DNA from: a virus
Length of the DNA: 30,206 bases
Strand: one strand, 5' to 3'
Virus record (IMG/VR): IMGVR_UViG_3300042298_000696
Span: 1-30,206 of that record
Part shown: positions 10,261 to 28,876 of the stretch, in pieces
Numbering within the stretch: the stretch's first letter is position 1
How the letters are laid out: each line of letters starts with the position of its first letter
Notes under the pieces: model-generated
Told to the model about the DNA's origin: nothing
The model's input: only the letters and a program-made list of their open reading frames with translations
The model's database searches: none
Position numbers and translations under genes: made by a program

Positions 10261-12750
10261 ATGGCATCTCCTCCCGGCCAAAAGCCTGTCACATTCTCAG
10301 AGAGCACTGTAAGAGACCCCATAGCAGAACAGAAATGGGCATACCTAACAGCGCATGACTACTCTCCGTTAAACATTCTGACAGCCGACGCTTCTCGAAA
10401 AGCGCAGATTCTAGCGGGTATGGCAAAAAATGACCCGAAAGCGCAGAAAGCGTTCTTTGGGCGCAAACCTACCGCTGCAGATTGGGCTAACTTGAAGGGA
10501 GGCACGGGGCAACCTATTCCTCAGCCTACACAAAAAGCCGCACAAGGCGGGCTGATGGCTCTGCGGGGGTACTCTTCGGGTGGTTCTCCAAAAGCAACAA
10601 ATGCGCCCAAAAAGGACGCACCCAAAAAGGACGCACCCAAAAAGAATGCCCCTGAAAAACAAAAACCCCCTGCTAAACCCAAGCTAGCCCCGCCGCCTAA
10701 AAATGAAACCGCGCAGCAGCGTAGCGAACGCTTGATGGCCTTTGAAACTGCAGGCGGAAAGCTAAACAAGCAGCAGAAAGGCTACGTGGCTAACTTTGCG
10801 GAGTACGCCGATAAAGGCTATCCCATAAACCCGAAGACGGGTATGCCCACTCCGCCTAAACTTCCTTCAAATGCTACCAAAGCCCAGAGAGAGGCGGCAA
10901 TGGAGAAGTTTACTGCGGATACTAATCTCAACGTAAACGATAAAGGTAAGCTGGCTCCCAACACGGGCGGTCCTAACCCGAACATCTCCTTAGCCGATAG
11001 TCTTACACAGACCCCTGTAGGGTTTGACCCGCAGTCCTTGAAATCGACTATGGCTAAGGACGGGAAAACAGTAATCCCGCCCAGCTTTATGACTGACCCC
11101 TATGCGGGCATAACAAACCCTTTCTATCGTCAAGCGATAGACTACCAAAAAAATATGAAGATGCCCGGTGAGTATGGGCAAGCCTCTGATATGTATCGAA
11201 CGGCTGGGGCCGGATTAGAAAGTCTGGCTGGGTACAAACCACAAGATGTTTCTTACCAAAATGCTTCGGCTGAAAGAGCCAGTGCAGAAAAAGCCGCCGC
11301 CGCACAGATGGGCAGTATTGCTAATGTCAGTGCGGAACGCGCAGCGGCAGAAAGAGCTCAAGCCTCTCAAATGGCCGCTATTGCTGATGTTAATGCACAG
11401 CAAGTAGACCTCGGGCAGTATAACGTAAACGCCTCGCAAATGCAGCGCCCAGAGGATGTAACCGCTAAAGAACTGCAGCGGTATCAGATGGACAGCGCAA
11501 ACCCCGTCACCACCCAAGCACTCGAAGCCTATCAAATGGCAGGGCCGGGGTCTTGGACCGATGAGGGTGTGTCTAGCAAATACATGAGCCCCTACATGCA
11601 GGGAGTCATTGACATCTCAAAGCGCGAAGCGGAGAGAGACTATACCAAGCAGATGAATGCACTGAATGCCAAGGCTGTATCGGCTGGAGCGTTTGGTGGG
11701 TCTAGGCAGGCTTTGGAGCGCTCTGAAGCACAGCGTAATTACAACGAGCAGTTGCAAGACATTCAAACGCGAGGTCTGCAGCAAGCTTACGAATCAGGTC
11801 GTTCTCAGTACACTGGGGAATTAAGCATGTCGCAGCAGGCGGCTCTGCAGAATCTGCAGTCTAAACTCTCCACACAGTCGCAGTCTTCGCAGCAAGAGTT
11901 GCAAGCGATGCTCTCTAACCAGAACATCGACTACCAGACCAAAGTGCAGAACCTACAGGCTATGCTGGGTGTACAGTCTCAAGAAGCACAGCAGATGCTC
12001 AATGCGTCACTGGCTAATCAACAGGCTGAAATGGTAACTAGCCAAACCAATGCACAACTGGCACAGCAGGCAGCACTGGCTAACCAAGGCGTAAACTCTC
12101 AAGGTGCTCTGGCTAATCAAGCAGCAGCGCTTCAAGCGGCTCTAGCTAATCAACAAACACAGTTTGGCACAGGGCAGTTCAATGCTGGGGCGCAGAATCA
12201 AGCCTCTCTTGCTAATGCTCAGTTGGGAACACAGGCCAATCTAGCCAACCAACGGGCGGCACTTGAAGCGGCTCTGGCTAATCAGCAGACTCAGTTCGGT
12301 GTGGGCTCTTTGAATGCAAATCTGGCGAATCAAACCAACCTGCAGAATGCTTCGCTGGGAACACAGGCGGCTCTTCAAAATGCTCAGTTGGGTACAAACG
12401 TCAACCTTGCCAACTCTCAATATGGCCTCAGTGCTGCTTTGGCTAACCAACAAGCAGGGCTTCAAGGAAACCAACAGAACATCGCAGCCTATGGTGCTAT
12501 GGGTAACATGGCTACTGGGCTCGGGTCTATCGGCACTAACATTGCTAACTTCAATCAGCAGCAGTTTGGCAATCTCGGGGCTATGGGTAATACGTGGCAG
12601 AGCGGTATGACTACAGCAGAAAACCAGCGAATGATAAACGAGTACAATTCTATCAACCCCGCGACTCCTCTGGGGCCTGTCTGGAGTGCCATAGGCGCTG
12701 CTCCTAGTGGGGGTGGTGGTAGTAGCTCCACTATAAATCGTACACCATAG
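10261..12750 (+). CDS. Gln/Ala-rich internal virion protein, 829 aa
   Basis: Residues 1-90 look folded (WAYLTAHDYSPLNIL, QKAFFGRKPTAADWANL). A GGLMALRGYSSGG motif and a Lys/Pro/Ala linker with 5-residue APKKD repeats follow. Residues about 331-372 contain two near-copies of a 21-residue AER...MxxIA(N/D)V unit. A helical region contains YMSPYMQGVIDISKREAERD and AGAFGGSRQALERSEAQRNY, which I recognise from many phage virion proteins. The C-terminal part (about 583-735) is a long Gln/Asn/Ala repeat built on LANQ. Such extended helical, low-aromatic proteins fit ejected core proteins (compare T7 gp14/gp15) by composition and position only. An AGAGGA ribosome site precedes the start. Confidence 0.6.
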   Translation: MASPPGQKPVTFSESTVRDPIAEQKWAYLTAHDYSPLNILTADASRKAQILAGMAKNDPKAQKAFFGRKPTAADWANLKGGTGQPIPQPTQKAAQGGLMALRGYSSGGSPKATNAPKKDAPKKDAPKKNAPEKQKPPAKPKLAPPPKNETAQQRSERLMAFETAGGKLNKQQKGYVANFAEYADKGYPINPKTGMPTPPKLPSNATKAQREAAMEKFTADTNLNVNDKGKLAPNTGGPNPNISLADSLTQTPVGFDPQSLKSTMAKDGKTVIPPSFMTDPYAGITNPFYRQAIDYQKNMKMPGEYGQASDMYRTAGAGLESLAGYKPQDVSYQNASAERASAEKAAAAQMGSIANVSAERAAAERAQASQMAAIADVNAQQVDLGQYNVNASQMQRPEDVTAKELQRYQMDSANPVTTQALEAYQMAGPGSWTDEGVSSKYMSPYMQGVIDISKREAERDYTKQMNALNAKAVSAGAFGGSRQALERSEAQRNYNEQLQDIQTRGLQQAYESGRSQYTGELSMSQQAALQNLQSKLSTQSQSSQQELQAMLSNQNIDYQTKVQNLQAMLGVQSQEAQQMLNASLANQQAEMVTSQTNAQLAQQAALANQGVNSQGALANQAAALQAALANQQTQFGTGQFNAGAQNQASLANAQLGTQANLANQRAALEAALANQQTQFGVGSLNANLANQTNLQNASLGTQAALQNAQLGTNVNLANSQYGLSAALANQQAGLQGNQQNIAAYGAMGNMATGLGSIGTNIANFNQQQFGNLGAMGNTWQSGMTTAENQRMINEYNSINPATPLGPVWSAIGAAPSGGGGSSSTINRTP
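10606..10650 (+). repeat. 15-bp tandem repeat (CCCAAAAAGGACGCA), three copies
   Basis: Two perfect copies (10606-10620 and 10621-10635) and a diverged third (10636-10650) encode PKKDA units in the basic linker of the 829-residue protein. Confidence 0.85.
12010..12465 (+). repeat. LANQ-type coding repeat
   Basis: Recurring CTGGCTAATCAA-like words encode LANQ about every 7-15 residues. Two longer units of roughly 40-55 residues begin ALANQQTQFGTGQFN and ALANQQTQFGVGSLN. The composition (Ala, Asn, Gln, Leu) suggests a long amphipathic helix or fibrous bundle. Confidence 0.75.
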
Positions 12751-12759
12751 GAATCATCA

Positions 12760-14655
12760 ATGAATATGAACTCTAATATCACTGGTCAGGATTCCAGCAA
12801 ACCGGCTGAGTTTGTTAATAGTACGTATGAAGCCTTGAAGTACAATCCACAGGCCGCGCAGCAGACTCTACAGAAAGGAGCTAATGCTGGACTTGCGGGA
12901 CTTGGGGCTATGGCGGCTGTTCGATATCAACAGCAAGCACAAGATGTACAAAAGGTTGAACAGGCGCAACAAGCTGGACAACAACCGCAGCCTACGGTAT
13001 TACAACAGCTTCAAATGATCGCTGCACAACAAGGTGGGATCATGGGCCAGTTACCTAGCAATATCGCTATGGCGCAGCAGCCAGAGCAAGGGCCTCAAGT
13101 GGGTGGCGGACTCGGAGCTCTTCCCGTTGACCCTCGTACTCTGCCGCAAGAGATGGCGGGTGGTGGGCTCGTTGCTCTAGCCGAAGGTGGGTTCCTTGAC
13201 TACGGTTATGATGGCGGTGAAGGCTACGCCGAGGGCGGCGAGGTAAGAGGGTTCTTTGGTGGTGGTGATACGGGTTTGTACGATCCCACAGAAAAACCTT
13301 TTGATTATGCTAAGAATGCTGTCACCCGCGCCTCTGACCTCATCATTCCGGGTTATGAGGATTATCGTCGTAAAAGGGAAGCAGAGTATGATGAAGATGT
13401 AGGTGACGAATACTACGATACCACTGAGGCTTCGCCAGAAGAGAAGGAAATACGTCGCCTGATGGGACTACCTGAAGCCTATGCCGAAGCTATGAAGGCT
13501 GGCGAACCCATGCCTGAGACAAAAACGCTGAAGCATGAAGCAGGTGGTCGTAACGGTGAAGTCCCTGCGGGTCAAGAGTCTATCAGAAACCCCAAACCGC
13601 AAGTAACAAAAGAAGCTACTAAAGTAGATAAGCAGTTCAAGAGTGGGCAGAGAGACGACAACCATCTTGTTTCCGATGCCCAAACGCCTGCGGCTTCGGG
13701 ATTAGAGCCTATTCCTGCTGAAGAAGAGCGCCGTGCTCTCATGGACCGAGCTAGACAGGAAACACAAGAAGAATTTGCCCTTAAAGAAAGAGCAGATAAA
13801 AACATGGCTCGCGCTGAAACTATAGCTCAATCTGGAGGGCTTCCCGCTATTCAAGGACAAAGAGCAGCAGCGTCTGATACTGGAAGCAGCTTTGAGGAAA
13901 ATGCTAGACGAATGAACGAGCTCTATGGTGCTACACCTCAGATGTCACCTGAAGAACGTGCATGGCGAAAAGAGCAGATCGAATCTTCTAGGGCGGATAA
14001 ATGGCTGCAGACTCTGACGGCTATGGCGGGTGGTACTTTTGCTAGTGGAGAAACTACTTGGCCTGCGGCGATAGGGAAAGGCGCTCTGTTTGGGTTGTCT
14101 ACTTATCGTCAAGGTGCTCAAGCAGAAGCCGAAGCTGAACTGGGTCTAATCCAAGCCGACGCTGCCTATAAAGCCGCCGAAGCCGCCCAACGCAAAGAAG
14201 CCACTAAAGATGTATCAAGCATCCTGCAGAACATGGCTAAACTGGGTAATGCATCGGATATTGCTAGCTTGAAAGAAAGAGCCGCTGCTGGTCGTGAAGA
14301 ATACAAAGCAGAGAACAAGGCTAGCGAGAAAGAGCTAGACAGAATAGCTGCTCAAATACGTGCTGAGACTGTAGCAGGAAGTCGAGGCGATGCGACTAAG
14401 GCTCAGTTAATCAATGCTAGAACTGAAACTAGGAAACTGGCTAGAGAAGAGCTAATAGGAAAGCACGGCAATGAGGCTTTGATCCCTCCCGGTGCAATAG
14501 AAATACTTGCAGAGAAATACTTCAACGACGCCTTACAAGCTGCCGGTATCCCCCCTTCAAGTCTAGGTGGCGGTCAAGGGCTTGGTGGAGGTATGGGCAT
14601 GGGGAACAGGCCAATTGTGCGAAGAGATCGTATAATACCCGCTGCTCAACAATAA
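12760..14655 (+). CDS. Internal virion protein candidate, 631 aa
   Basis: No enzyme motif is seen. Residues 1-75 are helical and Gln-rich (ALKYNPQAAQQTLQKG). At about 126-165 there is a Gly-rich block, PRTLPQEMAGGGLVALAEGG then YAEGGEVRGFFGGG, of the same kind as in the neighbouring virion genes. A charged, largely disordered stretch follows (about 180-360). Then comes a segment recognisable in many phage virion proteins (RWRxEQIESSRADKWLQTLTAMAGGTFA-like, about 405-440), and a C-terminal coiled coil rich in Ala, Glu and Lys. It sits third in the cassette that parallels T7 13-14-15-16. A TAGGAA ribosome site lies before the ATG. Structural role likely; exact role unknown. Confidence 0.6.
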   Translation: MNMNSNITGQDSSKPAEFVNSTYEALKYNPQAAQQTLQKGANAGLAGLGAMAAVRYQQQAQDVQKVEQAQQAGQQPQPTVLQQLQMIAAQQGGIMGQLPSNIAMAQQPEQGPQVGGGLGALPVDPRTLPQEMAGGGLVALAEGGFLDYGYDGGEGYAEGGEVRGFFGGGDTGLYDPTEKPFDYAKNAVTRASDLIIPGYEDYRRKREAEYDEDVGDEYYDTTEASPEEKEIRRLMGLPEAYAEAMKAGEPMPETKTLKHEAGGRNGEVPAGQESIRNPKPQVTKEATKVDKQFKSGQRDDNHLVSDAQTPAASGLEPIPAEEERRALMDRARQETQEEFALKERADKNMARAETIAQSGGLPAIQGQRAAASDTGSSFEENARRMNELYGATPQMSPEERAWRKEQIESSRADKWLQTLTAMAGGTFASGETTWPAAIGKGALFGLSTYRQGAQAEAEAELGLIQADAAYKAAEAAQRKEATKDVSSILQNMAKLGNASDIASLKERAAAGREEYKAENKASEKELDRIAAQIRAETVAGSRGDATKAQLINARTETRKLAREELIGKHGNEALIPPGAIEILAEKYFNDALQAAGIPPSSLGGGQGLGGGMGMGNRPIVRRDRIIPAAQQ

Positions 14656-14670: not shown

Positions 14671-17600
14671 ATGGCTAGAGACACAGGCTTAGGCGCTCTT
14701 TTTACTCCTTCTTATAGAACGGGCGATCCTGAAATGGACGCTCTCTTCGGCCTGATACGAGAGCAGCAAGAGCCACCTGAACTCAAACGACCAGAAACCC
14801 GCTCCGCTCCTAGAGGTGCTAGGGAACAAGAAGAAGTCAGGAAAGAGCAAGGTGCCCGAGGGCGTGTAAAGACGGCGGTTAATAAAGACCTGTCTCCAGA
14901 AGCTAGAGCGCTTCTTGACACTATTGCAGGGGATGAATCTCCGGACTACCGCACTGTTTATGGCGGTAGAAAAGTCAATGATTTATCACGGCATCCCGGT
15001 ATTGCTGTGCCGATTCATAGCGGGCCTAATGCGGGTAAAACCTCTTCCGCCGCTGGGCGATATCAATTTCTAGGTTCTACGTGGAACGATCAAGCTAAAA
15101 AGCTAGGGCTGCATGACTTCTCACCTGAGAGTCAAGACTTAGCTGCGTGGAATTTGGCTGTTGAGTCTTATGGCCCAAACCTAGAAGCGGATTTGCGCTC
15201 TGGTGATCCTAGGAAGATCGCTGAAATAGGGCATGCGCTCAGAAGAGTGTGGACTTCTTTGCCCGGAGGCATAGAGCAGGGAGCGCAGGCGTCAAAGTTT
15301 GCTAGCAGATACCTAAGTAATTTAGGGGCAGAAAGCGAAGCCCCGCAGCAGGCTTCTCCTCAACTAGCTTCAACTCAAGAATCTCCATACTACCCTGTTA
15401 GGCTCACTGATGGGCAGATATTTGACGTAGAGAAGGGCATGGGTTTGGATGAAGTAGATGCCATGTTACAGAAGAATGGTATCAATGCCCGCCCACTACG
15501 CCCCTATACGGCTCCTGATGGTCGTCAGTTTGATGTCGAATACGATATGACTGATGATGAAATCATGGGTATGCTGCAGAAAGCACCTCAACAGCCGGGG
15601 CAAGAGGAAGAATCGAACTATCTAGGTGCGATGAAGTACAACGCACAGCAGGCGCTTTCAGGCATAGCTCAGGGTGCGGGTACGGAGTTGGGTGAGCTAG
15701 GCAAAGCCGCTCAGGGTGCAGGGTTCCTTGGAGATTATGCTAAGCCCGTCAGTGAGTTTCTTACAGAAAAAGGAGCGCAGAGCCGCACCTATGGCGAGCA
15801 GTTAGGTAAAGATATCGAAGGCACCTACGAGCGCCCTAAGAACCTCAATGCTGTTGAGGAATACTTCTCCTATCCATTGGTTGAGACGGTTGGCGGTATC
15901 TTTCCTTATGTCGCTGCAGGCGGGCTATCTATGGTCCCCGGTGTCGGCGGTGTTCTTGGCCCTGCGGCTGTGGCTGGTGCTGTCCATGCAGGGGCTATGG
16001 GTGAGGGAGAACAACTGGCAAAGGCAGAAGGTAAAGAGTTTGTCCCTAGTGAGTATAGATTCCCCTATGCTGCGGCAGTCGACGCCGCCAATTTGGTTGG
16101 GTTGAATGTTCTTAACAAGGCACTCAAGGTTTTCGGCAAAGAAGCTATTCTGGGTTCCCGCGAAGCTATCCAAGCTGCTGTAGAGAAAGGCGGTATAGAG
16201 GAAGCCAAGAAAGTAGTAGGCTCTCGTCTTAAAAATGTAGCGGGAGAGTTCCTAAAAGGCGAAGCAGCATTGGTTAGTGGAGAGGTTATAGAAGATGCTA
16301 TCAACCGTGAGTATCTAGGCAAACCCCTGCTGAGTGAAGAAGCGTGGCAGCAATATTTTGAGACTTCCAAACAGGTCGGTCCTCTGGGTCTGTTCACTGG
16401 GCCTATGGCTGGGCTGGGTACTCACTACAACAAAGCCACTGAAGTAGCACGGTTAGAAGAGCAGCAAGCCGTACAAGAAGCCCTTGCTCAACAAGAAGCG
16501 GAGCGTCAGAAGATTGGAGAGTTGCGTGATGTCGGCGTGTCTCCAGCACAATTAGAGAAATTCAAAGTTAAGAATGAGTTAGAAGGACTCAGTGATGAAG
16601 ATGCCCTTGCTGCTTACAAAGCCGATCAAGAAGCTATTGCCCAACGTAAAGCGGCTAAGATAGAAGAGCTTCCAGAAGAACTCAGGGACGTGCCTTACAA
16701 GGAAGCTAAGGTATACCAACAAATGCAGGAAGCTCAAGCAGCAGAGGTGCCTAGTGAAGAAGTATCTGGAGTACCCGAAGAGCCTACTGCTCCTGTTGAG
16801 CCTGTTAGTAGTGTTGCCCCTCCTGCCGTTGAAGTGGGTGCCCCGGAAGTACCAAAAGCCCCAGAAGTACAAGCTGAAGCCCCAGAAGTAAAAGCGCCAG
16901 AGGCAGAGGTCCCTTATTACGATACGCTAGGACTCAAGAACCCCAAGAGCAACCTGCCGTATAAAGCCCTCAAGCAATTCGATATCAACAACCCAGACCA
17001 TGCTGCGTCTATCAATACCATTCTGGACGAAATAGAAAAGAAAGGTATGCCGCGAGATCAAGCGGCGGTCAACGCAGTCCGTGCCAAAACTGAAGAGGTA
17101 AAACTCAATGCCCAGCCAATCCCCCAAGCAGGCCCGTTTGTTCGCAGCGGCAGCACACAATCCGAAATTCGCCAAGAAGGTGGGGATCAAACAGTCAGTA
17201 GCCAAGGAGTGGAACCAAGCCGACAAGGGATCGAAGTTCCTGAAGTCCCCGAAGCCAAAGCGCCGGAAATAAAAGAAGCAAAACTGTTCACAGCCGGAAG
17301 AGATGAAGGCTACGTTGTATATGATGAAGAAGCTCTACAACGCGCAAGTCTAGATAAAGGAGACAAACCTGTGCCATCTGGCGGTGGAATGGCTCCTGAA
17401 TATGAGTCAATGTTTGGTAAGCATTTTTATGAAGAGGCTAAAAGGTACTTCGCTCCGGGTGGCGGCTATGAGAAAGGGGAAAAGTATCGTGTTGTTACAC
17501 CTAAAGGGGCTTATTTATTTACGGATGTAGATCAGGCTAAGAACTTTGCTGCTACTAGCGGTATGAAGAAGGGTGCGACTAGAGAGCTAAAGCCTTTTGA

Positions 17601-20600
17601 GGCGACCGTGCCTAAAATAGACAAATACGAAAGCCCCTATATAGGTAGCAAGAAGCTCGACCTCAATAAGTTCACTGATGTTAAGACAGGTGCCGACCTC
17701 CTCAATAGATACCTTGAGCATGGCACGGATGAAGGTCTGAAGTCCCTTGCCTCTTTGTTCTTACAGTCTCCGCATGCGGCTTCAGTCGGGGTTAATTTCC
17801 ATAAGGCTGGAGATGTACTGCCCGCGCATATTTTGAATGCTATATCCAAGTCACATGGGATATCTGTAACGGGTCCTGAAGGCTCTGCAGTACACTTTAG
17901 ATCGGATGCCCCCAACTCCTTTACAGAAGATACGTTAGTTCACGAACTGCTTCACTCTCTTACGACAGGCGCTATTCATCGTAGCCCGCACCTTAAAAAT
18001 AGCCTAGATAGCCTGTCGAAAAACATCGCAATGGAGTTAAGCCACACTGCGGATATGTTGGGTTATCATAAAAAGGACAACGCTAGGATTAAAGAGCTTG
18101 CTGATTTTTGGCAAAAACACGTTAAGTACAAACCGGGTGAAATGCTTGCCTACGGGCTAACGTCTCCGGCTTTTAAGGAAGTTTTGCAGGGCTTCACTGC
18201 TGACGGTAAGCGACTGAATTTAGTAGAACAGGAGACTTTGCGTAGTCACTATGACTACACTACCCGAAGACCTTCTGCGCCTAAACCGTTGACTCTATGG
18301 GATAAGTTTGTTGATCTGATGCGTAAGCTGTTCCGTATACCGGAGAAGAACAAGGCAGCATTTGAACAGGCGGTAGCTAAGTATCATGAAGATGTAGAAG
18401 CTCGTAGACAAGAGATTGAAAGGCTTGTCACACCAAAATCTCTGGCGGCTCAACTAGATGAACACCTCAATGAACTGCTGAAAGTCACTAGAGAAAAAGG
18501 TCTGGGCCTTCCGACTAAAGGTGAAGACATATCCCAAGCTAAAAAAGCTGAAGCCCCCACACCCAAGCCATCCAAAGAAGAGTTAGCCGAAGCGGAGAAG
18601 CGTCTGAAAGACTCCGGTATGGTCGGTGCTGTTAAAGACAGAACGCTGGGCACCAAGATGCGAGATGTTGTGAATGACCTCTTCACAGAGGGGCGCAATA
18701 ACTCTTTTGTATCTGAATATGTAGACGTGCGAGAGCCTATCTCCAAGGCTGTGCAGGACTTGCCGGATAACGTAGGTGAGAAGCTTAGGAGTGACTATAT
18801 CTACAGCGCCTATGAGCAACGGGGCAATGTCATCCAAGAGTCCTACCGTAAAGGCTTTGTCGCTATGGGTAGGGATGGCACGATTGAGGTTGTTAAGGAC
18901 AACCAGCTTGCTTTGGCTGAAATCTTTAAGCGTGTCGGTGCCAAGAACCAAGAGCTTTTCAGTAATGTGTTGGTAGCGCTTCGCGTCAGGACTATTAGGG
19001 CTCAGGATGCTGAGATCAGAGCGCAGGCCAACAAACTGCTTAATATGGCTGAGGAGATGCAGGACTATGCCAGTACCCTGAAGGATGCGGCTAAGCGTAA
19101 GAAGTTCAACGCGGCGGCTAGAAACCTCACAAAGATAGCGGAGAAAAACCTAGAAAGAATTAACTGGGAAAAAGGCCGCACCAAGTTTACAGCGCAGGAA
19201 GTTAGAGATGCTGAGACTGTTATAGCAGGGCACCCAGAGCTTGCTCGTGAAGCCGAAAACGTCTATGCACTGCTGCGTAAGTCTGTTGATCTGTGGGAGA
19301 ACGACGGGCTCGTAGATGCTGATAAAGCGAAGGAGTGGAAGGAATACCCCAACTACTTCCCGCTCTATGAGACAGCCGATTACGAGAAGCAGATGGCAGA
19401 CCCTTCCAAGCATATTGATAGCTATGCTGCCATGATGGGTAAGAGCCCTAAGAACCTTCCTACTGTACACGCTCAAGAATGGCATGCACATCAGGTCTTT
19501 ACAGAGAACAATCTACTGCGGCACATCTCCTTCTTTGCTTCTGCGGCGGCTGAGCATTCAGCACGTAAGAACACGGCCTATAACCTTGAGATGGTAGGTA
19601 AGGCTGAGCGCATCAAGAAAGGCACTGAGAAGAAGGGTGAGCTTGTCGTTAAATTCAGAGAGAATGGTAAGGACGTATTCTATAGAGTAGACGATGCTCC
19701 TGCGTACTATGCCATGCAGTCGGCCATGCCGTTGATGAGCCCTCTCCTGAAACGTATGCGTAGTGTCGGCAACTTCGCTCGTGTTGTGATGCTTATGAAC
19801 CCATTATTCTGGTTCCGTCAGGCATTCCGTGAGCCTATTCAAGCGAGTCTTGTAGGTCGTGCAGGGGTCATCACTACGTTTGATACGCTACGTGCTGTTA
19901 GTGAGATAGCCGCTGGTAAGTCAAAAGGCTACGAGCGTCTGCGAGCCAAAGGTACCATTGGTCCGGTGGATATCATTCCTGACCCTGCTGAGTTTATTAA
20001 AGTAGCCCAGAACGGCAAGAGCATGGTATCTAAGGGTCTGACGGGTATAAAGCATATCCACGAAGCAATGGATGCTGCGACTCGTGTGGTGGTGTACGAA
20101 AAGGCTAAGGCTGACGCGCTCAGTAAGGGCTTCGATGAAGAGACGGCTGACGCTATCGGTGTGATGAAAGCACGAGAGATCATCAACTTCGCCAAACAAG
20201 GACGTAGCAAGATCATTCGAGCCGTCCGTGCGACTACTCCATTTTTCGGCGCAGCACTGAACAGTTTAGACGTTATGGCTCGTGCAGCATCACCTCGTAA
20301 GATAGGGCATCTGAGTAAAGCTGAGGCTATGGAGGCTAGGAGAAATTTTTACTCTACAGCATTCATGCTGGCTACGTTCTCTACGGCCTACGCTGCGGCT
20401 ATGTCAGAGGATGAGGACTATCTGAAAGAACCTGATCGTATAGGTAATTGGTTGATTCCTATCGGGGGTGGTAATTTTATAAAAATCCCTATCCCGTTTG
20501 AAGCAGGGTGGTTTACCAAAGAATTGCCAGAACTTACGATGCTGCTCAACATGGGGGCTATCAATACACGCGAAGCGCTCACTGAGGCTAGAAAAGGGTT

Positions 20601-21336
20601 TGCGGCTAACGTGCTTCCTCCTATGCCGACGATGTATGCACTGCAACCTTTCTTGGAAATATTGGTTGACTATGACTTCTTCACTGAGTCTTCGCTTGAA
20701 GGCAGAGACTCCGAATTGGCGGTACGTGACAGAAATAGTAAAGCCAGCGAACTCTCTAAGCTAATTATCAACAAGATGGAAGATGCTGGCGTAAACATCT
20801 TCGGCATGTCCGCCAACCAGCTTGAGCATCTGAATAAGAAGTTCTTGGGTCAGCTATGGGCAGTGACCCGTACCGCCTCGGATGCTTACATAAACAGAGG
20901 GCGTGTTACCCCTGAGAAGGAATGGTATGAGATGCCCCTAATCAGTGGGGCCGTGACTTCAGGCACTAAGGATCGCGCTGTCGATCAGTTCTATACAGTG
21001 GCTAAAGAAGTATCGGAGGTCAATAAATCGTTTGAACGTGCCAAGTCCCATGCAGATGTAGAGCGCTTCAACCAGATCACGACCAATCCAGAGAATGTTA
21101 AAGCCCTCAAAGCTAGCAAATCTTTGCGAGATAAAAAAGCAGATATAGGTAAGTTGGCTACTGATATAGAGAAGATCAAACAGAGCCAACCGCCGAACTA
21201 CGACAAGATGTCTGACAGAGAAAAGAAACAGGCGGCTAAGGATATGGCCGCTAAAATCAAGATGCTCAAAGACAGACAACGCCTTATTGCTAAGCTCGGA
21301 GTTGAGGAAGCGCGTAAGCTAGGGTTGGATATTTAG
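14671..21336 (+). CDS. Giant internal virion protein: lysozyme + metallopeptidase + LPD38-type polyvalent protein
   Basis: 2221 residues. Residues 80-220 align in pattern with lambda R lytic transglycosylase (GH104-type): AGDESPDYRTVYGG with likely catalytic E89, LSRHPG, SSAAGRYQFLGSTW (125-138), LHDFSPESQDLAAW (147-160) and VWTSLPGG. Two short DGQ/RxFDVExxM modules follow at about 240-305, then a hydrophobic Gly-rich region (about 400-445) that could enter a membrane. Acidic Pro-Glu-Val linkers come next (about 690-790). HELLH (1091-1095), with E1157 in PGEMLAYG, gives a zinc metallopeptidase-like set. Residues about 1350-1960 (MLMNPLFWFRQAFREPIQA, AREIINFAKQGRS, ATTPFFGAALNSLD) match the large polyvalent LPD38 type. 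The T7 gp16-like layout suggests ejection into the host and local wall degradation. Confidence 0.8.
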   Translation: MARDTGLGALFTPSYRTGDPEMDALFGLIREQQEPPELKRPETRSAPRGAREQEEVRKEQGARGRVKTAVNKDLSPEARALLDTIAGDESPDYRTVYGGRKVNDLSRHPGIAVPIHSGPNAGKTSSAAGRYQFLGSTWNDQAKKLGLHDFSPESQDLAAWNLAVESYGPNLEADLRSGDPRKIAEIGHALRRVWTSLPGGIEQGAQASKFASRYLSNLGAESEAPQQASPQLASTQESPYYPVRLTDGQIFDVEKGMGLDEVDAMLQKNGINARPLRPYTAPDGRQFDVEYDMTDDEIMGMLQKAPQQPGQEEESNYLGAMKYNAQQALSGIAQGAGTELGELGKAAQGAGFLGDYAKPVSEFLTEKGAQSRTYGEQLGKDIEGTYERPKNLNAVEEYFSYPLVETVGGIFPYVAAGGLSMVPGVGGVLGPAAVAGAVHAGAMGEGEQLAKAEGKEFVPSEYRFPYAAAVDAANLVGLNVLNKALKVFGKEAILGSREAIQAAVEKGGIEEAKKVVGSRLKNVAGEFLKGEAALVSGEVIEDAINREYLGKPLLSEEAWQQYFETSKQVGPLGLFTGPMAGLGTHYNKATEVARLEEQQAVQEALAQQEAERQKIGELRDVGVSPAQLEKFKVKNELEGLSDEDALAAYKADQEAIAQRKAAKIEELPEELRDVPYKEAKVYQQMQEAQAAEVPSEEVSGVPEEPTAPVEPVSSVAPPAVEVGAPEVPKAPEVQAEAPEVKAPEAEVPYYDTLGLKNPKSNLPYKALKQFDINNPDHAASINTILDEIEKKGMPRDQAAVNAVRAKTEEVKLNAQPIPQAGPFVRSGSTQSEIRQEGGDQTVSSQGVEPSRQGIEVPEVPEAKAPEIKEAKLFTAGRDEGYVVYDEEALQRASLDKGDKPVPSGGGMAPEYESMFGKHFYEEAKRYFAPGGGYEKGEKYRVVTPKGAYLFTDVDQAKNFAATSGMKKGATRELKPFEATVPKIDKYESPYIGSKKLDLNKFTDVKTGADLLNRYLEHGTDEGLKSLASLFLQSPHAASVGVNFHKAGDVLPAHILNAISKSHGISVTGPEGSAVHFRSDAPNSFTEDTLVHELLHSLTTGAIHRSPHLKNSLDSLSKNIAMELSHTADMLGYHKKDNARIKELADFWQKHVKYKPGEMLAYGLTSPAFKEVLQGFTADGKRLNLVEQETLRSHYDYTTRRPSAPKPLTLWDKFVDLMRKLFRIPEKNKAAFEQAVAKYHEDVEARRQEIERLVTPKSLAAQLDEHLNELLKVTREKGLGLPTKGEDISQAKKAEAPTPKPSKEELAEAEKRLKDSGMVGAVKDRTLGTKMRDVVNDLFTEGRNNSFVSEYVDVREPISKAVQDLPDNVGEKLRSDYIYSAYEQRGNVIQESYRKGFVAMGRDGTIEVVKDNQLALAEIFKRVGAKNQELFSNVLVALRVRTIRAQDAEIRAQANKLLNMAEEMQDYASTLKDAAKRKKFNAAARNLTKIAEKNLERINWEKGRTKFTAQEVRDAETVIAGHPELAREAENVYALLRKSVDLWENDGLVDADKAKEWKEYPNYFPLYETADYEKQMADPSKHIDSYAAMMGKSPKNLPTVHAQEWHAHQVFTENNLLRHISFFASAAAEHSARKNTAYNLEMVGKAERIKKGTEKKGELVVKFRENGKDVFYRVDDAPAYYAMQSAMPLMSPLLKRMRSVGNFARVVMLMNPLFWFRQAFREPIQASLVGRAGVITTFDTLRAVSEIAAGKSKGYERLRAKGTIGPVDIIPDPAEFIKVAQNGKSMVSKGLTGIKHIHEAMDAATRVVVYEKAKADALSKGFDEETADAIGVMKAREIINFAKQGRSKIIRAVRATTPFFGAALNSLDVMARAASPRKIGHLSKAEAMEARRNFYSTAFMLATFSTAYAAAMSEDEDYLKEPDRIGNWLIPIGGGNFIKIPIPFEAGWFTKELPELTMLLNMGAINTREALTEARKGFAANVLPPMPTMYALQPFLEILVDYDFFTESSLEGRDSELAVRDRNSKASELSKLIINKMEDAGVNIFGMSANQLEHLNKKFLGQLWAVTRTASDAYINRGRVTPEKEWYEMPLISGAVTSGTKDRAVDQFYTVAKEVSEVNKSFERAKSHADVERFNQITTNPENVKALKASKSLRDKKADIGKLATDIEKIKQSQPPNYDKMSDREKKQAAKDMAAKIKMLKDRQRLIAKLGVEEARKLGLDI

Positions 21337-21422: not shown

Positions 21423-24374
21423 CTAAAGAGGTGTGTCAATAGGATCGTCTGCTTTTGACAGCATATCGACATCGAACAGGTAGCACGGGACGGGGGCTGT
21501 GGAATAATTTGCCGTTGCTTCACCTAGATTCGTGGTTAGTTCTTCTATCAACGTGCCGGATGACGTGAGCCCTTTCATTACTTGTAGGGTAGGCATGCGC
21601 TTGGTATTCAGCCATCCTACAAAGTCGGAAACGGAGATATACAGGCGACGAGTCTGCACCTCATGCCGACCCTTGAGAGCGCCGATGACAGGCTTACTGA
21701 CGGATTGATTCATTAGCGCATTATCCACGTCAGTCTGTCCACTCTGCACCACCAGAATCTGATGTATGAACTCATTCCAGTAACGGTTCACAGCGCTTGC
21801 ATACGAGCTTCCCTCTTGAATCATTGAGGCTTTTTGTACCGCAGTACGAGTCTCGGTGAACAACTCTATGGCCCACTCCCATACAGGCTCAATGGGGATA
21901 TTGATGATGCCCAGACGGTTAGCTATCTCTCCACCCGCAAAGGCTGCTGCCATACACCCAGAATAAAATCGCTCCTTGCCTTTTGAGTCCACTTCCGCAT
22001 CAAATCTACGCCGTGTGTCTAGGAGCTTTTCACGCACATTCTCAATGTTAGGCACAACGTACTGCATATAGGGCTCACACGCTAACCCATAGTTGTTTGG
22101 CAGTAGTTGACCGAATAGCTCATCCGCCTCTGCTTTAGTGAGGAGGTCATCATTCTCTACGGGCACTTGCAGTATGCGGAGCATTTCGCCTTCGACAGAT
22201 TCTTTGTATTGCTTCAGCACCCCATGCAGGCTGTTGTTACCAGAGGTCAGAAAAATCGTAGCCCATGTCGTGTCATTGGTGCGCTCCATGTTGTCATGAG
22301 TTCTTAGCCGGTTCTTGCCTCTGCCTGATGATAGGTCAAAACTAAAGCGGCTTACCGCTTCTGGCAGCATATTAGTCACTTCGTCTATACATGCCGGGAT
22401 ATTGTTTAGTACCCCCGCCCTATGCAGCTTGGCGTTCACCGTGTCGTTGTCGGTCAGCATACCCCGTATAGGATCACCCCAGATGCTGGTAACGGCTTTC
22501 TGCAATGTAGACTTACCCACGCCTGATGCTACGTTAGTCAGATGGACGATCATGCTCCCTTCACCGATGAACTTATACAACGGAGCACCGAACCCACAGA
22601 ACAGAGCAAAGGCTCTAGCCTCATTTCCTTTACTAGCATAGGTGTTCACAACCTTCTGCCAGTTCTCTAGCTTGCCTACTTTTGCGTAAATCTCAGCGAT
22701 TGATTGCGCTCCTTTGGTAATAGGGCTGTGGCCGATAGTGCCTGTGTCATTTACCTCTCTATTGCCAATAACAAACCGTGTGTCGTTGTCATGCCATCCG
22801 AACTGTTTACGGGCGTTTGCGGCTTTGCCGTCATCTTGCAGCTTCTTTGTCCATGCTCCGATATAGCGACGAAGTAACTCAAGCCGTTTGTTATTTGTGA
22901 CTACATGCACTCCCTTGGCAGCAAGGATATCTCGTAGGGTGTCCATTTTATATAGATAGGCCAGCGGAGCCGTGACTTCAGATAACCCGTCATTCGGCAA
23001 ACAAATACACAGCGTAGCATACTCCTGCTCTCCGTCTTTCGATCTATCCTTTACCCACAAGTCGCGTTCGTAGACCATGAACTCGTCAGGATCATCACCA
23101 CTGTCAGGATTATCATTTTCTACACTGCCTCTATAAGCTACCCCGCCACCTTTCGGGCGTATCCAAGGAAAAGGGTAGTCAGTAGGAATTTCTACGGAGA
23201 CAGTCTCGTTCAGCCCTTCATGCTTGACCTCAATGATGTGCTCTTCTGGTAGTGCCTCTTCTATCACTACACCCAAGGATATAGGCGATGTGATTTTGCC
23301 CTTGTGTATACAGGCGCTACAGAGTTGAGGATGATTGAGCTCCTTCCATTTCTCACAGGTGCGAGGTCCTTCTGCTCTACTCGCCTTGGCAAACCATTCA
23401 TCAGGTTCAGTGCCGGGGTAATCCCTCGACACCATATCAATCCCTTCGACTCTATCAATACAGAACTGCGCGATGGATAGCGCAGCATGCCACATGGGTT
23501 CTTCTAGGGTTGCTCGATTAGATACACAATAGGCGATCTGTGGGCACCCAGCACTGCGTTCCACTTTTCTTTTTACCAGACGGTCAATCTTGGTGCCATC
23601 TGCCTGCTCTATCTGCTCAATAGTTTCTTCGACGCGCTCAATGGTATCAATGCTTTTTTTGTAGATTCTGCTAAATTTGAATGTGCGGCTTACCTGCATC
23701 AACTTCTCCATGACAGGATCGGCTGAGTGAACAGGAGAGTAAGCCTCGCGTGATACATACCCTACACAGGCTGAAAAATGCGCTAGGGTTATAGGGTCTG
23801 CGACTCGTTTAAGTACGACTTTCTTATGGTTGCTGTCGCGTTTTTTGTTCGTGGTGTTCGGGACTCGTAAGATTCGCGCTCCATCTGCCGTCACTACAGG
23901 ATCGGCCTTTAGTTCTAATTCGTGAGTTTTGCGTTTGAATGCGTCAGCTACAGGCTTCCATGTGTTGTACTCTACAGCGGCGTTTAAGCTCCAATAGGCA
24001 TGTACTCCGAAACCGGAATCGACCAGTGTGGGGAGCGGGAGTTTGATCGTGTCACAAAATTTCTGAAGAGCCTCAATAGCCTCCTTCTTGGTCAGGTAGC
24101 CGTTCTCCTTGCCGCAGTCTAGGTCAAGATAGAAGCTCTTGAGCGCTTGGATATTTTGTACGTTTTTTGGTTTGTCTTTGTTTTGGAATGTGGCACAGGC
24201 GAAGTAAACCTCTCTGCCTTCCTCATCCATTGAGGCTATTGTCCTTGCTATTTCTGGATCGCCTTGCTCGAAGTAGCGCACCTTTGGCATGGCTGAGCGA
24301 TCACTCCTCAAACCTGTTAAGCAGAGCAGACCATCCTCGGCCAATACGGTGTTAAATAATGTTTCTGGTTCCAT
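21423..24374 (-). CDS. Primase-helicase (archaeo-eukaryotic primase fused to helicase ATPase)
   Basis: 983 residues. The N-terminal part (1-220) looks like an AEP/PrimPol primase: FYLDLDCG (81-88) gives metal ligands D84 and D86, and VDSGFGVHAYWSL (118-130) is the SGxGxH nucleotide motif with H125. A probable zinc site follows (C340, H348, C352, C355 in TCEKW...HPQLCSACIHKG). The C-terminal half is a DUF927/superfamily III-like helicase: Walker A ASGVGKST (616-623, K621), Walker B ACIDEV (661-666), then a sensor-like ATIFLTSGN. One protein would thus prime and unwind the phage origin or fork. Ribosome site GGGAG lies about 3 bases before ATG. It is the last gene of the operon, set off from the ssDNA-binding gene by a hairpin. 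Confidence 0.8.
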   Translation of the reverse strand: MEPETLFNTVLAEDGLLCLTGLRSDRSAMPKVRYFEQGDPEIARTIASMDEEGREVYFACATFQNKDKPKNVQNIQALKSFYLDLDCGKENGYLTKKEAIEALQKFCDTIKLPLPTLVDSGFGVHAYWSLNAAVEYNTWKPVADAFKRKTHELELKADPVVTADGARILRVPNTTNKKRDSNHKKVVLKRVADPITLAHFSACVGYVSREAYSPVHSADPVMEKLMQVSRTFKFSRIYKKSIDTIERVEETIEQIEQADGTKIDRLVKRKVERSAGCPQIAYCVSNRATLEEPMWHAALSIAQFCIDRVEGIDMVSRDYPGTEPDEWFAKASRAEGPRTCEKWKELNHPQLCSACIHKGKITSPISLGVVIEEALPEEHIIEVKHEGLNETVSVEIPTDYPFPWIRPKGGGVAYRGSVENDNPDSGDDPDEFMVYERDLWVKDRSKDGEQEYATLCICLPNDGLSEVTAPLAYLYKMDTLRDILAAKGVHVVTNNKRLELLRRYIGAWTKKLQDDGKAANARKQFGWHDNDTRFVIGNREVNDTGTIGHSPITKGAQSIAEIYAKVGKLENWQKVVNTYASKGNEARAFALFCGFGAPLYKFIGEGSMIVHLTNVASGVGKSTLQKAVTSIWGDPIRGMLTDNDTVNAKLHRAGVLNNIPACIDEVTNMLPEAVSRFSFDLSSGRGKNRLRTHDNMERTNDTTWATIFLTSGNNSLHGVLKQYKESVEGEMLRILQVPVENDDLLTKAEADELFGQLLPNNYGLACEPYMQYVVPNIENVREKLLDTRRRFDAEVDSKGKERFYSGCMAAAFAGGEIANRLGIINIPIEPVWEWAIELFTETRTAVQKASMIQEGSSYASAVNRYWNEFIHQILVVQSGQTDVDNALMNQSVSKPVIGALKGRHEVQTRRLYISVSDFVGWLNTKRMPTLQVMKGLTSSGTLIEELTTNLGEATANYSTAPVPCYLFDVDMLSKADDPIDTPL

Positions 24375-24396
24375 GCTCCCTGCCTACTAACGAAAG

Positions 24397-24417
24397 GGGC
24401 GGTGCAGAACACCGCCC
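24397..24417 (-). terminator. Hairpin between ssDNA-binding and primase genes, possible attenuator
   Basis: GGGCGGTG (24397-24404) and CACCGCCC (24410-24417) form a perfect, GC-rich 8-bp stem with a 5-base loop in the 71-base gap. On the minus strand it is followed only by CTTTCGTT, a weak T-run. It may cause partial termination or protect the 3' end of the ssDNA-binding mRNA, giving more binding protein than primase. Confidence 0.5.
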
Positions 24418-24445
24418 ATAAAAAGGATATCAACCTATCCAGTTA

Positions 24446-25339
24446 TCAATCGTCAGTAGCCCATTCGTCAAGGATGTTTTCCACCGATTCGCTTTTGACC
24501 GGCGCAGTGTTTGTCTTCGACTTACGGACAGTGGGCTCCTCTTCAACGGCCTCAATCGCTACAGGCTCTTCTCTGAAGGGTGATACCTTGGGTGCCGTAG
24601 CTTCAGCGGTCTTGGCTAAATCCATCTGCGCTGGGTTGAATGCGATAGCAGACAAGGCTTCTGGGCTCTGACCCTTCTCAATAACCGCAGCAATTTCGGC
24701 ATCAGTCAAAGATCGTGCAGCGCGGAAAAATAGCTTGGGAGACTCAGCGGATTCATCAAACCGCATCTCCGTCACGACACGAGTGATAGAGTAATTGAAC
24801 CCCGCCAGATGCTTAACATACGCATCCAGTGCCATATCATCCTCGCCCTTTGCCTTACCAAATATAGACGTAGCTGGAAGCGTTAGCTGGTAGACATCGC
24901 TGTTTTCTACATTATTAGCTAGTACAACTGCCAGCCTACGGCTGAAGCGACAAGCGCGACCCTTACCGTTGGTGCCAGACCCAGCGATGTTCTTTGGGCA
25001 ACTATCACAGGTCTTACCTTGAGGAGCAGGAGCTTTAGGATCAGGACGCCTGCCATCATTCGACCAGCAATCGGGTAGACCTACTGCGTTAGGATCAAAG
25101 GTCTTGGCATAGAAGGTACGGCTCACATCAGGAGCCGCGTTGACGACTACTACATCCATCTCGGGCTTGGGGCTCCGTGCCGTCTCTTGTCCATTGACGA
25201 TCATACGGAACTTACTACCCCGCAGAGAAATGCGCTTGTAGTTACCACCATTACCCAGCAGTTTTTTGGTTACATCGTCCAGACCTTGAGCGCTAGAAAC
25301 AACAGAAGTCTGGTCACGGAAAAGCGTTACATTAGACAT
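24446..25339 (-). CDS. Phage ssDNA-binding protein candidate with acidic tail
   Basis: 297 residues. The layout fits phage ssDNA-binding proteins: a beta-rich core (YKRISLRGSKFRMIVNGQE, MDVVVVNAAP), a probable zinc site with C91, C111, C114 and C130 (DCWSNDG, TCDSCP, ACRFSRRLAVV), strands around QLTLPATSIFG and LFFRAARSL, and a disordered linker. The C terminus ends NILDEWATDD, an acidic tail with an aromatic residue like that used by T7 gp2.5 and bacterial SSB to contact partners. It lies between a coiled-coil protein and the primase-helicase, downstream of a good promoter, as expected for a protein needed in quantity. The fold is inferred; no single catalytic motif can prove it. Confidence 0.65.
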   Translation of the reverse strand: MSNVTLFRDQTSVVSSAQGLDDVTKKLLGNGGNYKRISLRGSKFRMIVNGQETARSPKPEMDVVVVNAAPDVSRTFYAKTFDPNAVGLPDCWSNDGRRPDPKAPAPQGKTCDSCPKNIAGSGTNGKGRACRFSRRLAVVLANNVENSDVYQLTLPATSIFGKAKGEDDMALDAYVKHLAGFNYSITRVVTEMRFDESAESPKLFFRAARSLTDAEIAAVIEKGQSPEALSAIAFNPAQMDLAKTAEATAPKVSPFREEPVAIEAVEEEPTVRKSKTNTAPVKSESVENILDEWATDD

Positions 25340-25351
25340 GATATTTACCTA

Positions 25352-25762
25352 TTAAAGTTTTTTGGAAGGGCGGCGTACAGTAACGGAGTACGCACGGTCA
25401 GTATTCATACCCATTGGGAACACATCGGGATGATCCTCTAGGAAGTCCCGCATAGCCCCGTTGCTGATTCTCTTCTCAAGCAGGTATGGTGCTTGATGAG
25501 CATTGATGAACTGATACAAAGAGTCCCAGTCCGTCGTATAGTATTTAGTTGCTACACTCCTTATGATTGTCCCATGATTTGTTTTTATGCTTCCAGCACC
25601 TAGCTCTTCACAGAGCCTGTTCATCTCGGCTTGTAGCTCCTCCATTTTACCTTTCAGGACCGCTTCCTTCTCTTCGTTCTCTTTTTTCAAAGCGTAGTAC
25701 GTGTCCCGCAGGTTCAAGAAAGCAGCAGCCAAGCTGTCCGCTGATAATTTTTCAGTCTCCAT
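25352..25762 (-). CDS. Coiled-coil phage protein of unknown function, 136 aa
   Basis: The start is taken at the ATG of METEKLSADS because GAGGA lies 5 bases upstream and the promoter and hairpin sit just ahead. An upstream ATG (25846) would run the coding sequence through those signals. Residues 22-55 form a charged coiled coil (KKENEEKEAVLKGKMEELQ). Residues 58-136 are a compact domain: GSIKTNHGTIIRSV, YYTTDWDSLYQFI, LLEKRISNGAMRDFLE and a final YSVTVRRP strand. I recognise this domain pattern from other phage replication regions, where it is uncharacterised. It may help the ssDNA-binding protein encoded next, but that is only position-based. It is the first gene of the promoter-driven transcript. 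Confidence 0.65.
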   Translation of the reverse strand: METEKLSADSLAAAFLNLRDTYYALKKENEEKEAVLKGKMEELQAEMNRLCEELGAGSIKTNHGTIIRSVATKYYTTDWDSLYQFINAHQAPYLLEKRISNGAMRDFLEDHPDVFPMGMNTDRAYSVTVRRPSKKL

Positions 25763-25803
25763 AATATCCTCGCGTAGTGTTGCGTGATTGCGTATCGACA
25801 TCT

Positions 25804-25820
25804 CCCACATAACGTGTGGG
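25804..25820 (-). promoter_or_regulatory. 5' leader hairpin next to the predicted transcript start
   Basis: CCCACA (25804-25809) pairs with TGTGGG (25815-25820) around a 5-base loop. It would form within the first bases of the RNA made from the promoter at 25830-25859, about 40 bases before the ribosome site. A 5' stem of this kind can protect mRNA from decay; it could also be an operator palindrome. Confidence 0.5.
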
Positions 25821-25829
25821 GCCAGACAT

Positions 25830-25859
25830 ATTATACCAAGAATCAAAGGGTTACGTCAA
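25830..25859 (-). promoter_or_regulatory. Sigma70-type promoter with extended -10
   Basis: On the minus strand TTGACG (25859-25854) and TATAAT (25835-25830) are 18 bases apart, and TGG directly before the -10 gives an extended -10. The -35 matches five of six consensus bases and the -10 matches all six. The predicted start is near 25823. The -35 overlaps the last codons of the helicase gene, so the promoter serves the coiled-coil, ssDNA-binding and primase-helicase genes. Confidence 0.75.
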
Positions 25860-27415
25860 ATATCACCTCCCAAAAAGTTTTTATACATGGACAACAAGTT
25901 GTTCTGTGCCAGTGTACGATCTTCCAGCGCCTTATACAACTGCTTCTCTACCCCGCTGCTGCAAAGGTGGACGACCAAACAAGGATTCCTCTGTCCTGCT
26001 CTGTGGACTCGGGCATTGGCTTGCAGGTACGTCTCCGCGCTAGTCGTGGGGGAGAACCATATTACAGTATTTGCTGCCGTAAGTGTAACCCCATGCGCTG
26101 CTGCTTGTGGCTGAATGATAAGAACATGAGGCTCTGTGCTCTCTTGGAATTTTTTGAAAATCTCCGTTCTTCTCTTTGGGCTCACGCCACCATGAATGGC
26201 ATCGCTAGAGACTCCGTGTTTCTTTAGAAACTCTCCTACGATGTCTATCGAATGCCGGAAAGCACAGAAGATCAGTGTCTTGTGAGAAGCCTGCTGTACA
26301 ACATTTAGCATCTCGTTCAGCTTGTTGGAGGCATCGAACTGCACTGTCTCCCCCGTGTCAGCATAGACTGCTCCGCTTGAAATCTGTAATAGCTTACCCA
26401 ACTGTACTGCGGCATTGACTGCGGAGACTTCCTCTCCCGCCGCTTGTATTAGCATATCCTTACGTAGCTTCTTGTAGTATTTCTCCTGTTGTGGAGTCAT
26501 TGGTACTTCGTAGGTTGTATACAACTGCTCTGGTAGGTCTAGGCACTCCTCTGTTGTATATCGAATCGCCGGTTGGAGTACGCTGTGTACGATCTCCTGA
26601 GCATCAGGCTTTGGAATCCATTTGAACTGATTGATCTTTATCATCACCTTGTCTCTGAACGCACCCGCATAGGATGGCACAGCGCTAGGGTTCACAATCT
26701 TTGCCTGCCCGTATGCGTCCTCTGGCGACTGCGCTGCTGGAGTACCTGTCATGAGCCACACCCATGTGTCAGCCCCAATCAGAGAGTTAAAGGCTTTCCA
26801 TCGTCTTGTCTTGGCATTCTTCAGGTAGCTCGACTCATCGGCAATAATCAGATCGAACCCGCCTACCACTAGCTCGTCTCGCACCACTTCAACCCCGTCA
26901 TAGTTGATGATGACAAAATCGTAGTTGCCCTTAATTACCTGAATGCGCTGGTCTCTGGAGCCGTGAGCGATGCCTACTCTTCGGTGCATAACCGTCTTGA
27001 ACAGATCAGAGCGCCATGCACAGTCCATGATAGACAGAGGGCATACGACCAACACTCTGCGAATCGCCCCCATACTTAGCAGATAGTCAGCCGCCCACGC
27101 TGCCGCATTCGTTTTCCCACTGCCCATAGCGTTTAAGCAAAAGGCCCGCTTGTGAATCGTCAAAAATGCCGCTGTGTCTTTCTGATGAGCAAACGGGCGG
27201 TACATCCCCGGCCATTGGTAGTGCCCCAGTATAGGCGACAGAGGTTTCTTGAAACCAAGATTCTTGAGGATGACAGCATTTCCAAGGTCCCAATGGACCA
27301 ATACTTCTGAGATACCTTCTTGCTCTCCGACCACCTTAGACTTCTGAATCACTTGTGTAATCTTGTCAGGATTACGTGTACGCACCAAGAGGGCGTTGTT
27401 ATGCACAATTTCCAT
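25856..27415 (-). CDS. SNF2-family DNA helicase/translocase
   Basis: 519 residues, a compact superfamily II protein of the SNF2 group. Motifs in order: YRPFAHQKD (Q-motif region, Q78), LNAMGSGKT (Walker A at 96-102, K101), LVVCPLSIM (Ia), DLIIADESSYLKN (DESS at 193-196 in place of DEAH), LMTGTPAAQS (III), KTLIFCAFRHSID (IV), GVSPKRRTEIFKKFQ, LIIQPQAAAHGVTLTAAN (V) and QANARVHRAGQ (VI, 465-475). The HRxGQ form is typical of SNF2. Phage versions are thought to act in replication, recombination or fork remodelling. Residues 1-70 form a short unassigned N-terminal domain. Ribosome site AAGGGA lies just before the ATG. Confidence 0.88.
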   Translation of the reverse strand: MEIVHNNALLVRTRNPDKITQVIQKSKVVGEQEGISEVLVHWDLGNAVILKNLGFKKPLSPILGHYQWPGMYRPFAHQKDTAAFLTIHKRAFCLNAMGSGKTNAAAWAADYLLSMGAIRRVLVVCPLSIMDCAWRSDLFKTVMHRRVGIAHGSRDQRIQVIKGNYDFVIINYDGVEVVRDELVVGGFDLIIADESSYLKNAKTRRWKAFNSLIGADTWVWLMTGTPAAQSPEDAYGQAKIVNPSAVPSYAGAFRDKVMIKINQFKWIPKPDAQEIVHSVLQPAIRYTTEECLDLPEQLYTTYEVPMTPQQEKYYKKLRKDMLIQAAGEEVSAVNAAVQLGKLLQISSGAVYADTGETVQFDASNKLNEMLNVVQQASHKTLIFCAFRHSIDIVGEFLKKHGVSSDAIHGGVSPKRRTEIFKKFQESTEPHVLIIQPQAAAHGVTLTAANTVIWFSPTTSAETYLQANARVHRAGQRNPCLVVHLCSSGVEKQLYKALEDRTLAQNNLLSMYKNFLGGDI

Positions 27416-27428
27416 ATTCCCTTATCCA

Positions 27429-27443
27429 CCGCTTGAGGAGCGG
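27429..27443 (-). other. Short hairpin upstream of the helicase start
   Basis: CCGCT (27429-27433) pairs with AGCGG (27439-27443) around a 5-base loop in the 50-base gap before the helicase gene, 14 bases from its ATG. There is no T-tract or promoter match. It may tune translation or RNA processing; weak evidence. Confidence 0.3.
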
Positions 27444-27465
27444 CAACCTGTTAAAATCGAGACAG

Positions 27466-28875: not shown

Positions 28876-28876
28876 T

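Follow-up and report, generated by a model that had tools for sequence, protein, structure and literature searches.

The 30,206-nucleotide stretch of viral DNA analysed here (IMG/VR record IMGVR_UViG_3300042298_000696, positions 1 to 30,206; hereafter the window) contains an intact open reading frame (14671-21336, plus strand) for a giant protein of 2221 amino acids, P0001, which unites unrelated enzymatic domains in one chain. Starting at the N terminus these are a lambda R-type transglycosylase and a zincin-like domain with a HELLH motif, followed by the large polyvalent protein domain LPD38, and P0001 is a polyvalent protein of phage type in the sense of Iyer et al. 2017 (PMC5512222). With moderate confidence, we read P0001 as a polyvalent protein that a short-tailed phage incorporates into its virion and ejects, with the zincin most likely acting after entry. 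Near-identical DNA is found in a second IMG/VR contig (3300044733_001520; 99.996% identity over the overlap compared), and the start and end of the protein have homologous counterparts in two close relatives, L060 and L061.

The zincin-like domain and its HExxH/Glu site

The zincin-like (gluzincin-type) domain comprises residues ~1000-1290 (17668-18540, plus strand). HELLH, the only HExxH in P0001, lies at residues 1091-1095 (17941-17955) and the putative third metal ligand is E1157 (18139-18141); an earlier reading made from the sequence alone had placed both correctly to the residue. HELLH alone is weak evidence, because a bare HExxH arises in 5% of composition shuffles of P0001. In an alignment of P0001 with 41 relatives from IMG/VR (42 sequences, termed A4) only five columns are invariant, H1091, E1092, H1095, T1098 and E1157. 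Records L007-L058 were fetched with the pattern HEL[LI]H, so that conservation of His and Glu among them is partly ascertained, and the proper test is the set retrieved without the motif. This consists of relatives found by way of the C-terminal region in which the motif-bearing part of the domain was detected, together with L138, fetched by patterns outside the motif. HExxH and the downstream Glu are kept in 8/8 of these (L060, L061, L066, L067, L072, L077, L102 and L138), with variation in the motif letters (HEAVH, HEMVH, HETTH, HEIVH, HELIH and HELVH). E1157, which was not used in retrieval, is Glu in 45/45 sequences of a second alignment. The general-base Glu (E1092) is also kept in the entry proteins of phages LKD16, PSTNGR1, XAJ24, SFN6B, PhiM1 (gp48) and N4 discussed below. 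Judged from these alignments, the conservation of HELLH is far beyond chance. Most other relatives retrieved through the C-terminal region have no detectable copy of the P0001-type zincin.

A model of the domain calculated with AlphaFold2 on A4 has a mean predicted local distance difference test (pLDDT) score of 81, rising to 94 for the block around HELLH and 87 for that around E1157. It begins with a helix (82-91 in the model), followed by three strands (100-105, 124-129 and 132-138) that we read as a small beta-sheet, the helix that bears HELLH (147-165) and the helix that bears E1157 (216-225). The zincin-like metallopeptidases (MPTases) described by Iyer et al. have the same order of elements (PMC5512222). 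HELLH had been expected to lie in a helix near E1157; in the prediction both are located in confident helices, and to this extent the expectation is borne out. The predicted fold around HELLH and E1157 is gluzincin-like. Of the two families named in the sequence-only reading it is thus the gluzincins that stand, with Glu as the downstream residue; in the sequence HELLHSLTTGAIH the position of the third metzincin histidine, 1101, is Ala, and the consensus HExxHxxGxxH/D is absent. A search of the window record with the Pfam family MPTase-PolyVal (PF18818) yielded nothing at E values up to 10, a point in which the P0001 zincin differs from the MPTase of Iyer et al. The 4227-residue chain encoded by L010 (4349-17029) has three HExxH motifs (HEMLH, HELLH and HEIGH), and possibly contains several MPTase domains.

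Comparison of the model with predicted viral structures using Foldseek gave 15 matches at E<=0.001. They include large polyvalent proteins, a phiKMV-like core protein (PAO1_Ab05, 1337 residues), a virion-encapsulated RNA polymerase (Vibrio phage phi 1) and proteins of the uncultured phages cr272_1 and cr8_1, whose names suggest crAss-like phages. Among the lower-ranked matches are an M34-type endopeptidase and a crAssphage 'zincin protease' fusion.

Zincin relatives in phage entry proteins

The A4 profile finds the zincin in three solved proteins, the internal virion protein of 9sfn (chain G; E 1.8e-47), gp10 of 23sg (E 8e-21) and the tetrameric ejection protein gp48 of Pectobacterium phage PhiM1 (8vb2; E 1.5e-11), and HExxH and the Glu are aligned in each. 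A4 includes the SFN6B protein (L057), which helps the 23sg match, and that of XAJ24 (L050). The 9sfn protein has the same length (1337 residues) as gp37 of LKD16 and of phiKMV, and LKD16 gp37 holds the zincin (2.6e-39; motif HEAVH) when the profile is built without Autographiviridae. The domain and its motif are also present in the core proteins of XAJ24, Providencia phage PSTNGR1 and Shigella phage SFN6B. The phiKMV-type internal virion proteins (LKD16 gp37, 9sfn) and PhiM1 gp48 thus resemble P0001 in having a zincin with HExxH and Glu in an ejection protein at the gp16 position, but they are 1263-1337 residues long and have no LPD38. The homology to 9sfn and 8vb2 rests on the sequence profile, because neither structure, though expected, is among the Foldseek PDB matches listed. 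T7 gp16 has a HERLH at 559 that does not align to the zincin profile and is due to chance.

The C1 domain of the N4 virion RNA polymerase (vRNAP, gp50), with HELVH at 2228, is related to the zincin by profile comparison (hhalign 97%, E 2e-11). With N4 alone the value is 95% and the alignment includes the Glu, which in N4 is followed by MAWGL. By these profiles N4 C1 and the P0001 zincin belong to one family. N4 gp50 is like P0001 a giant ejected protein; it differs in having an RNA polymerase in place of the lysozyme, and its C2 domain has no detectable homology to the LPD38 block. In the literature searched, with most subscription papers lying outside it, a zincin and an ejection protein are brought together only in a 2025 preprint on N4 (PMC12633501).

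BLASTP and DALI led the authors of the PhiM1 paper to term residues 268-528 of gp48 endolysin/exotransglycosidase-like (PMC11440229). The zincin profile matches 8vb2 over residues 289-522, where the motif reads HEAAH and a Glu follows downstream, and from this match the published 'endolysin-like' label is probably mistaken.

The C-terminal block, the wall enzyme and the virion module

The C-terminal half of P0001 had been assigned to a large polyvalent protein region, and this is borne out. LPD38 (Pfam PF18857) matches residues 1915-2091 (20413-20943, plus strand) above the cut-off (E 8.8e-17), and forms part of a homologous block of ~900 residues from ~1314 (residues 1314-2221; 18610-21333). 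Throughout a set of 43 proteins this block is terminal, ending <=27 residues from the C terminus in 42/43, while the length of the preceding part varies between 703 and 2725 residues among complete proteins. We infer that the LPD38 block is a packaging/ejection module, and probably the carrier of the chain. The best experimental support comes by analogy from JC1 gp69, a DarB-like protein of the Bcep22 gp75 type (PMC9144972). As in P0001 there is an N-terminal lytic transglycosylase (residues 80-192) and a C-terminal LPD38 (4195-4401), and the phage is a podovirus; gp69 was detected in purified virions by mass spectrometry with 51 peptides, as the second-best scoring protein (PMC9144972). Unlike P0001, it has 4515 residues and includes methylase and helicase-like parts.

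The AlphaFold2 model of the block is helical, with moderate confidence (pLDDT 74). Homology of the block to the C-termini of T7 gp16, N4 C2, the phiKMV-type proteins or phiEco32 gp26 was rejected at the sensitivity used (hhalign <1%, no fold match in the PDB), and P0001 has no match to PHROG 342, the T7 gp16-type internal virion protein. At this sensitivity neither T7 gp16 nor the Autographiviridae set shows a relationship to the block, and some of their members have only the zincin in common with P0001.

The N-terminal domain (residues 59-226; 14845-15348, plus strand) is a lambda R-type transglycosylase, in agreement with the pattern and the catalytic residue E89 (codon 14935-14937) named in the sequence-only reading. 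The PHROG 90 endolysin profile matches residues 58-226 (E 7e-23), lambda lysozyme (1am7/3d3d) aligns to 92-200 (E 9e-9, phmmer), and E89 lines up with the catalytic Glu of the lambda-type lysozymes of phages Skate and ZF40. Following the domain, the motif DGxxFDVexxMxxxEvxxMLQ is read twice in the translation (residues 241-306; 15391-15588). The L002 polyvalent protein begins with one copy of a similar motif, and such a motif is also found in L138. Residues 381-500 (15811-16170) form an Ala/Gly-rich stretch that is the most hydrophobic of the chain; it lies within a conserved region (65% identity to L060) and may have a role in the membrane or a channel.

The close relatives in IMG/VR (C-terminal identity 75% for L060/L062, 40% for L061 and 33% for L138) all end in LPD38 and all carry HExxH and Glu. 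The wall enzyme is of a different kind from one to another, lambda R type in P0001, Phage_lysozyme2 in L060 and L138, and SLT in L061, while the flanks of this slot and the C terminus stay conserved. The N terminus of L138 (4575-11534) perhaps has two wall enzymes; its Phage_lysozyme2 is followed by a stretch that by eye is M15/VanY-like (SGYRPG...HxxxxAxD...HxD). Identity is mosaic along the chain. Between P0001 and L060 the C-terminal block is 76-82% identical and the region following the lysozyme 65-74%, compared with 27% for the lysozyme slot and 37% for the zincin; between P0001 and L061 identity is 46% in the zincin, 55% in residues 861-960 and 35-45% in the C-terminal block. Residues 861-960 (17251-17550, plus strand) are a variable slot ahead of the zincin. 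Between linker and zincin L060 has FtsK_gamma and ART-PolyVal, and P0001 a different stretch of ~90 residues. The wall enzyme, the cargo and the zincin therefore act like interchangeable modules attached to a carrier that is conserved.

The gene for P0001 is the last of the late/virion module, and the replication genes that come after it have the opposite orientation; for ejection genes, an order with the largest last is typical (PMC8954989). It is preceded by two candidate partner ejection proteins, both on the plus strand and assigned from their position and synteny. These are a 631-residue protein (12760-14655; syntenic homologues in L060 and L061) directly before the largest gene, and an 829-residue protein (10261-12750; syntenic homologues in L060, 46%, L061, 31%, and, over part, L002, 34%). 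A further plus-strand gene (8922-9833) encodes an Ala/Gly-rich (44%) protein of 303 residues with homologues in L061 and L117, which may be a small ejection protein. A 792-residue virion structural protein (4438-6816, plus strand; PHROG 3287, E 7e-66) is probably the tail nozzle or hub, and has 81% identity to its L117 homologue. In the sister genome G002 two SU10_adaptor proteins are encoded upstream. These adaptors, the PHROG 3287 protein and the S74 tail fibre and short-tail-fibre-like protein of the window (described below) are consistent with a podovirus having an SU10/phiEco32-like tail. The late module of phiEco32/SU10 resembles the window in its SU10-type adaptors (in the sister genome) and in the succession of ejection genes, a large protein and a strand switch. 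It differs in that phiEco32 gp26 (1473 residues) lacks HExxH, and no homology between gp26 and the LPD38 block could be detected. That P0001 is ejected, as the sequence-only reading had supposed, is well supported by inference from gene order, the adaptors of the sister genome and the occurrence of homologues in virions.

Other genes of the window encode a tail fibre with a C-terminal S74 intramolecular chaperone (2464-4434) and a 144-residue protein (8486-8920) with a PHROG short tail fibre match and weak likeness to a Gp18-like domain and a cupin. On the minus strand (21423-30206) are a DUF927 primase/helicase-like protein, an SNF2/ResIII helicase and PolA, in an order shared with L002, L060 and L061. 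No P22-type portal family was found in eight records; a search for the T7-type portal is uninformative, with no match in these records nor in any control genome. With the patterns used, the GTDB genomes gave no bacterial hosts or prophages with close relatives, and the PADLOC defence models gave no match.

A possible role of the zincin in entry

In the reading that we prefer P0001 would be packaged in the virion and would be ejected either before the DNA or together with it, the ~900-residue LPD38 block being the constant carrier part that brings about packaging and ejection. The lambda R-type transglycosylase would open the peptidoglycan at the entry site, as its domain type and the swapping of wall-enzyme types suggest. 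The zincin would most likely act after ejection on proteins of the entry site, whether on partner ejection proteins, on the chain of P0001 itself or on a protein of the host envelope. Several observations weigh against this. In the Foldseek comparison with the PDB, the top-ranking entry for the zincin model was the zinc metallopeptidase 4l7a, at a non-significant E 0.13 and a template modelling score of ~0.3, and the C-terminal block had no significant match either; no zinc, activity or substrate is reported for any member of the zincin family in the literature searched. Nor is the zincin essential to ejection as such, because many of the T7-like core proteins sampled do not have the domain; ten other core proteins retrieved by C-terminal similarity have no detectable zincin, although one of these (L115, annotated as 940 residues) may miss its N-terminal part.

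The zincin might instead cut its own chain at Pro/Glu/Val linkers, freeing the wall enzyme and cargo from the carrier. Self-processing by the protease domain was proposed for polyvalent proteins by Iyer et al. 2017 (PMC5512222), and the sequence-only reading had supposed that the protease could process itself, other ejected proteins or host targets, and that the linkers could allow cleavage between the parts. A Pro/Glu/Val/Ala-rich linker is indeed recognisable by composition (residues ~681-750; 16711-16920, plus strand), and it lies together with the variable cargo slot (ART and FtsK_gamma in L060) directly between wall enzyme and zincin. Moreover P1 DdrB, another polyvalent protein with an MPTase, is processed before packaging (PMC5512222). 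However, L061 has the zincin but no Pro/Glu/Val/Ala linker by the same composition test, the phiKMV type has it without known cargo, N4 vRNAP is reported to be packaged unprocessed (PMC5512222), and no conserved cut site was found. Since the same zincin is present in N4 vRNAP and the phiKMV-type core proteins, self-cleavage at linkers is probably not the common denominator of the family, and as an account of P0001 we regard it as fairly unlikely.

We also think it rather improbable that the zincin has an effector function, cleaving a host protein of defence, envelope or transcription after entry. Such a function would fit its faster divergence relative to the carrier (37% compared with 76-82% between P0001 and L060), its apparent exchange as a module with the active-site residues fixed, and the occurrence of known effector domains such as ART in polyvalent proteins. 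But there is no known target, and the occurrence of the zincin in phages and hosts of widely differing kinds points to a general task.

Alternatively, the fold could bind metal but carry out no proteolysis, and contribute to the structure or folding of the ejection protein. The homologous domain of PhiM1 gp48 is part of the ejectosome, where it lines a groove beside the packaged DNA (PMC11440229). Yet the general-base Glu of HExxH never varies, even among homologues retrieved without the motif. A zinc site that was purely structural would have no need of this Glu, so catalysis is favoured over mere metal binding and we consider a structural role unlikely. It is highly improbable that the lysozyme domain serves host lysis, with P0001 a late lysis or intracellular enzyme that is not ejected, since although its nearest lambda R homologues include lysis endolysins, a separate M15-type (M15_4-type) peptidase gene (700-1128, plus strand; Pfam PF13539, E 2e-16) is a candidate lysis endolysin, so that the domain need not do so, the gene for P0001 stands at the end of the virion module, and homologues of P0001 occur in virions.

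The interpretation of P0001 as an ejected polyvalent protein with a zincin that processes proteins is partly supported, and was largely anticipated by Iyer et al. 2017, whose polyvalent proteins include, as here, giant chains with a lysozyme-type enzyme, a zincin-like MPTase and LPD38 encoded among the late genes (PMC5512222); in the text of that paper no mention was found of the specific domain order of P0001, with its lambda R-type enzyme. The present analysis adds the link of the zincin to ejection proteins of laboratory phages, and the probable mislabel. We suggest tentatively that a single zincin family is an ejection-coupled protease common to the N4-type vRNAP, the phiKMV-type ejectosomes and the LPD38 polyvalent proteins, and perhaps to crAss-like proteins. 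If this is true, the entry of many podophages would have an unrecognised proteolytic step. In at least one solved ejectosome the domain in question has been described as endolysin-like. The label of PhiM1 gp48 residues 268-528 merits revisiting, which bears on the reading of ejectosome structures. A question that can now be tested in laboratory phages is whether the invariant site formed by HExxH and Glu in N4 vRNAP and phiKMV gp37 belongs to an active protease at DNA entry.

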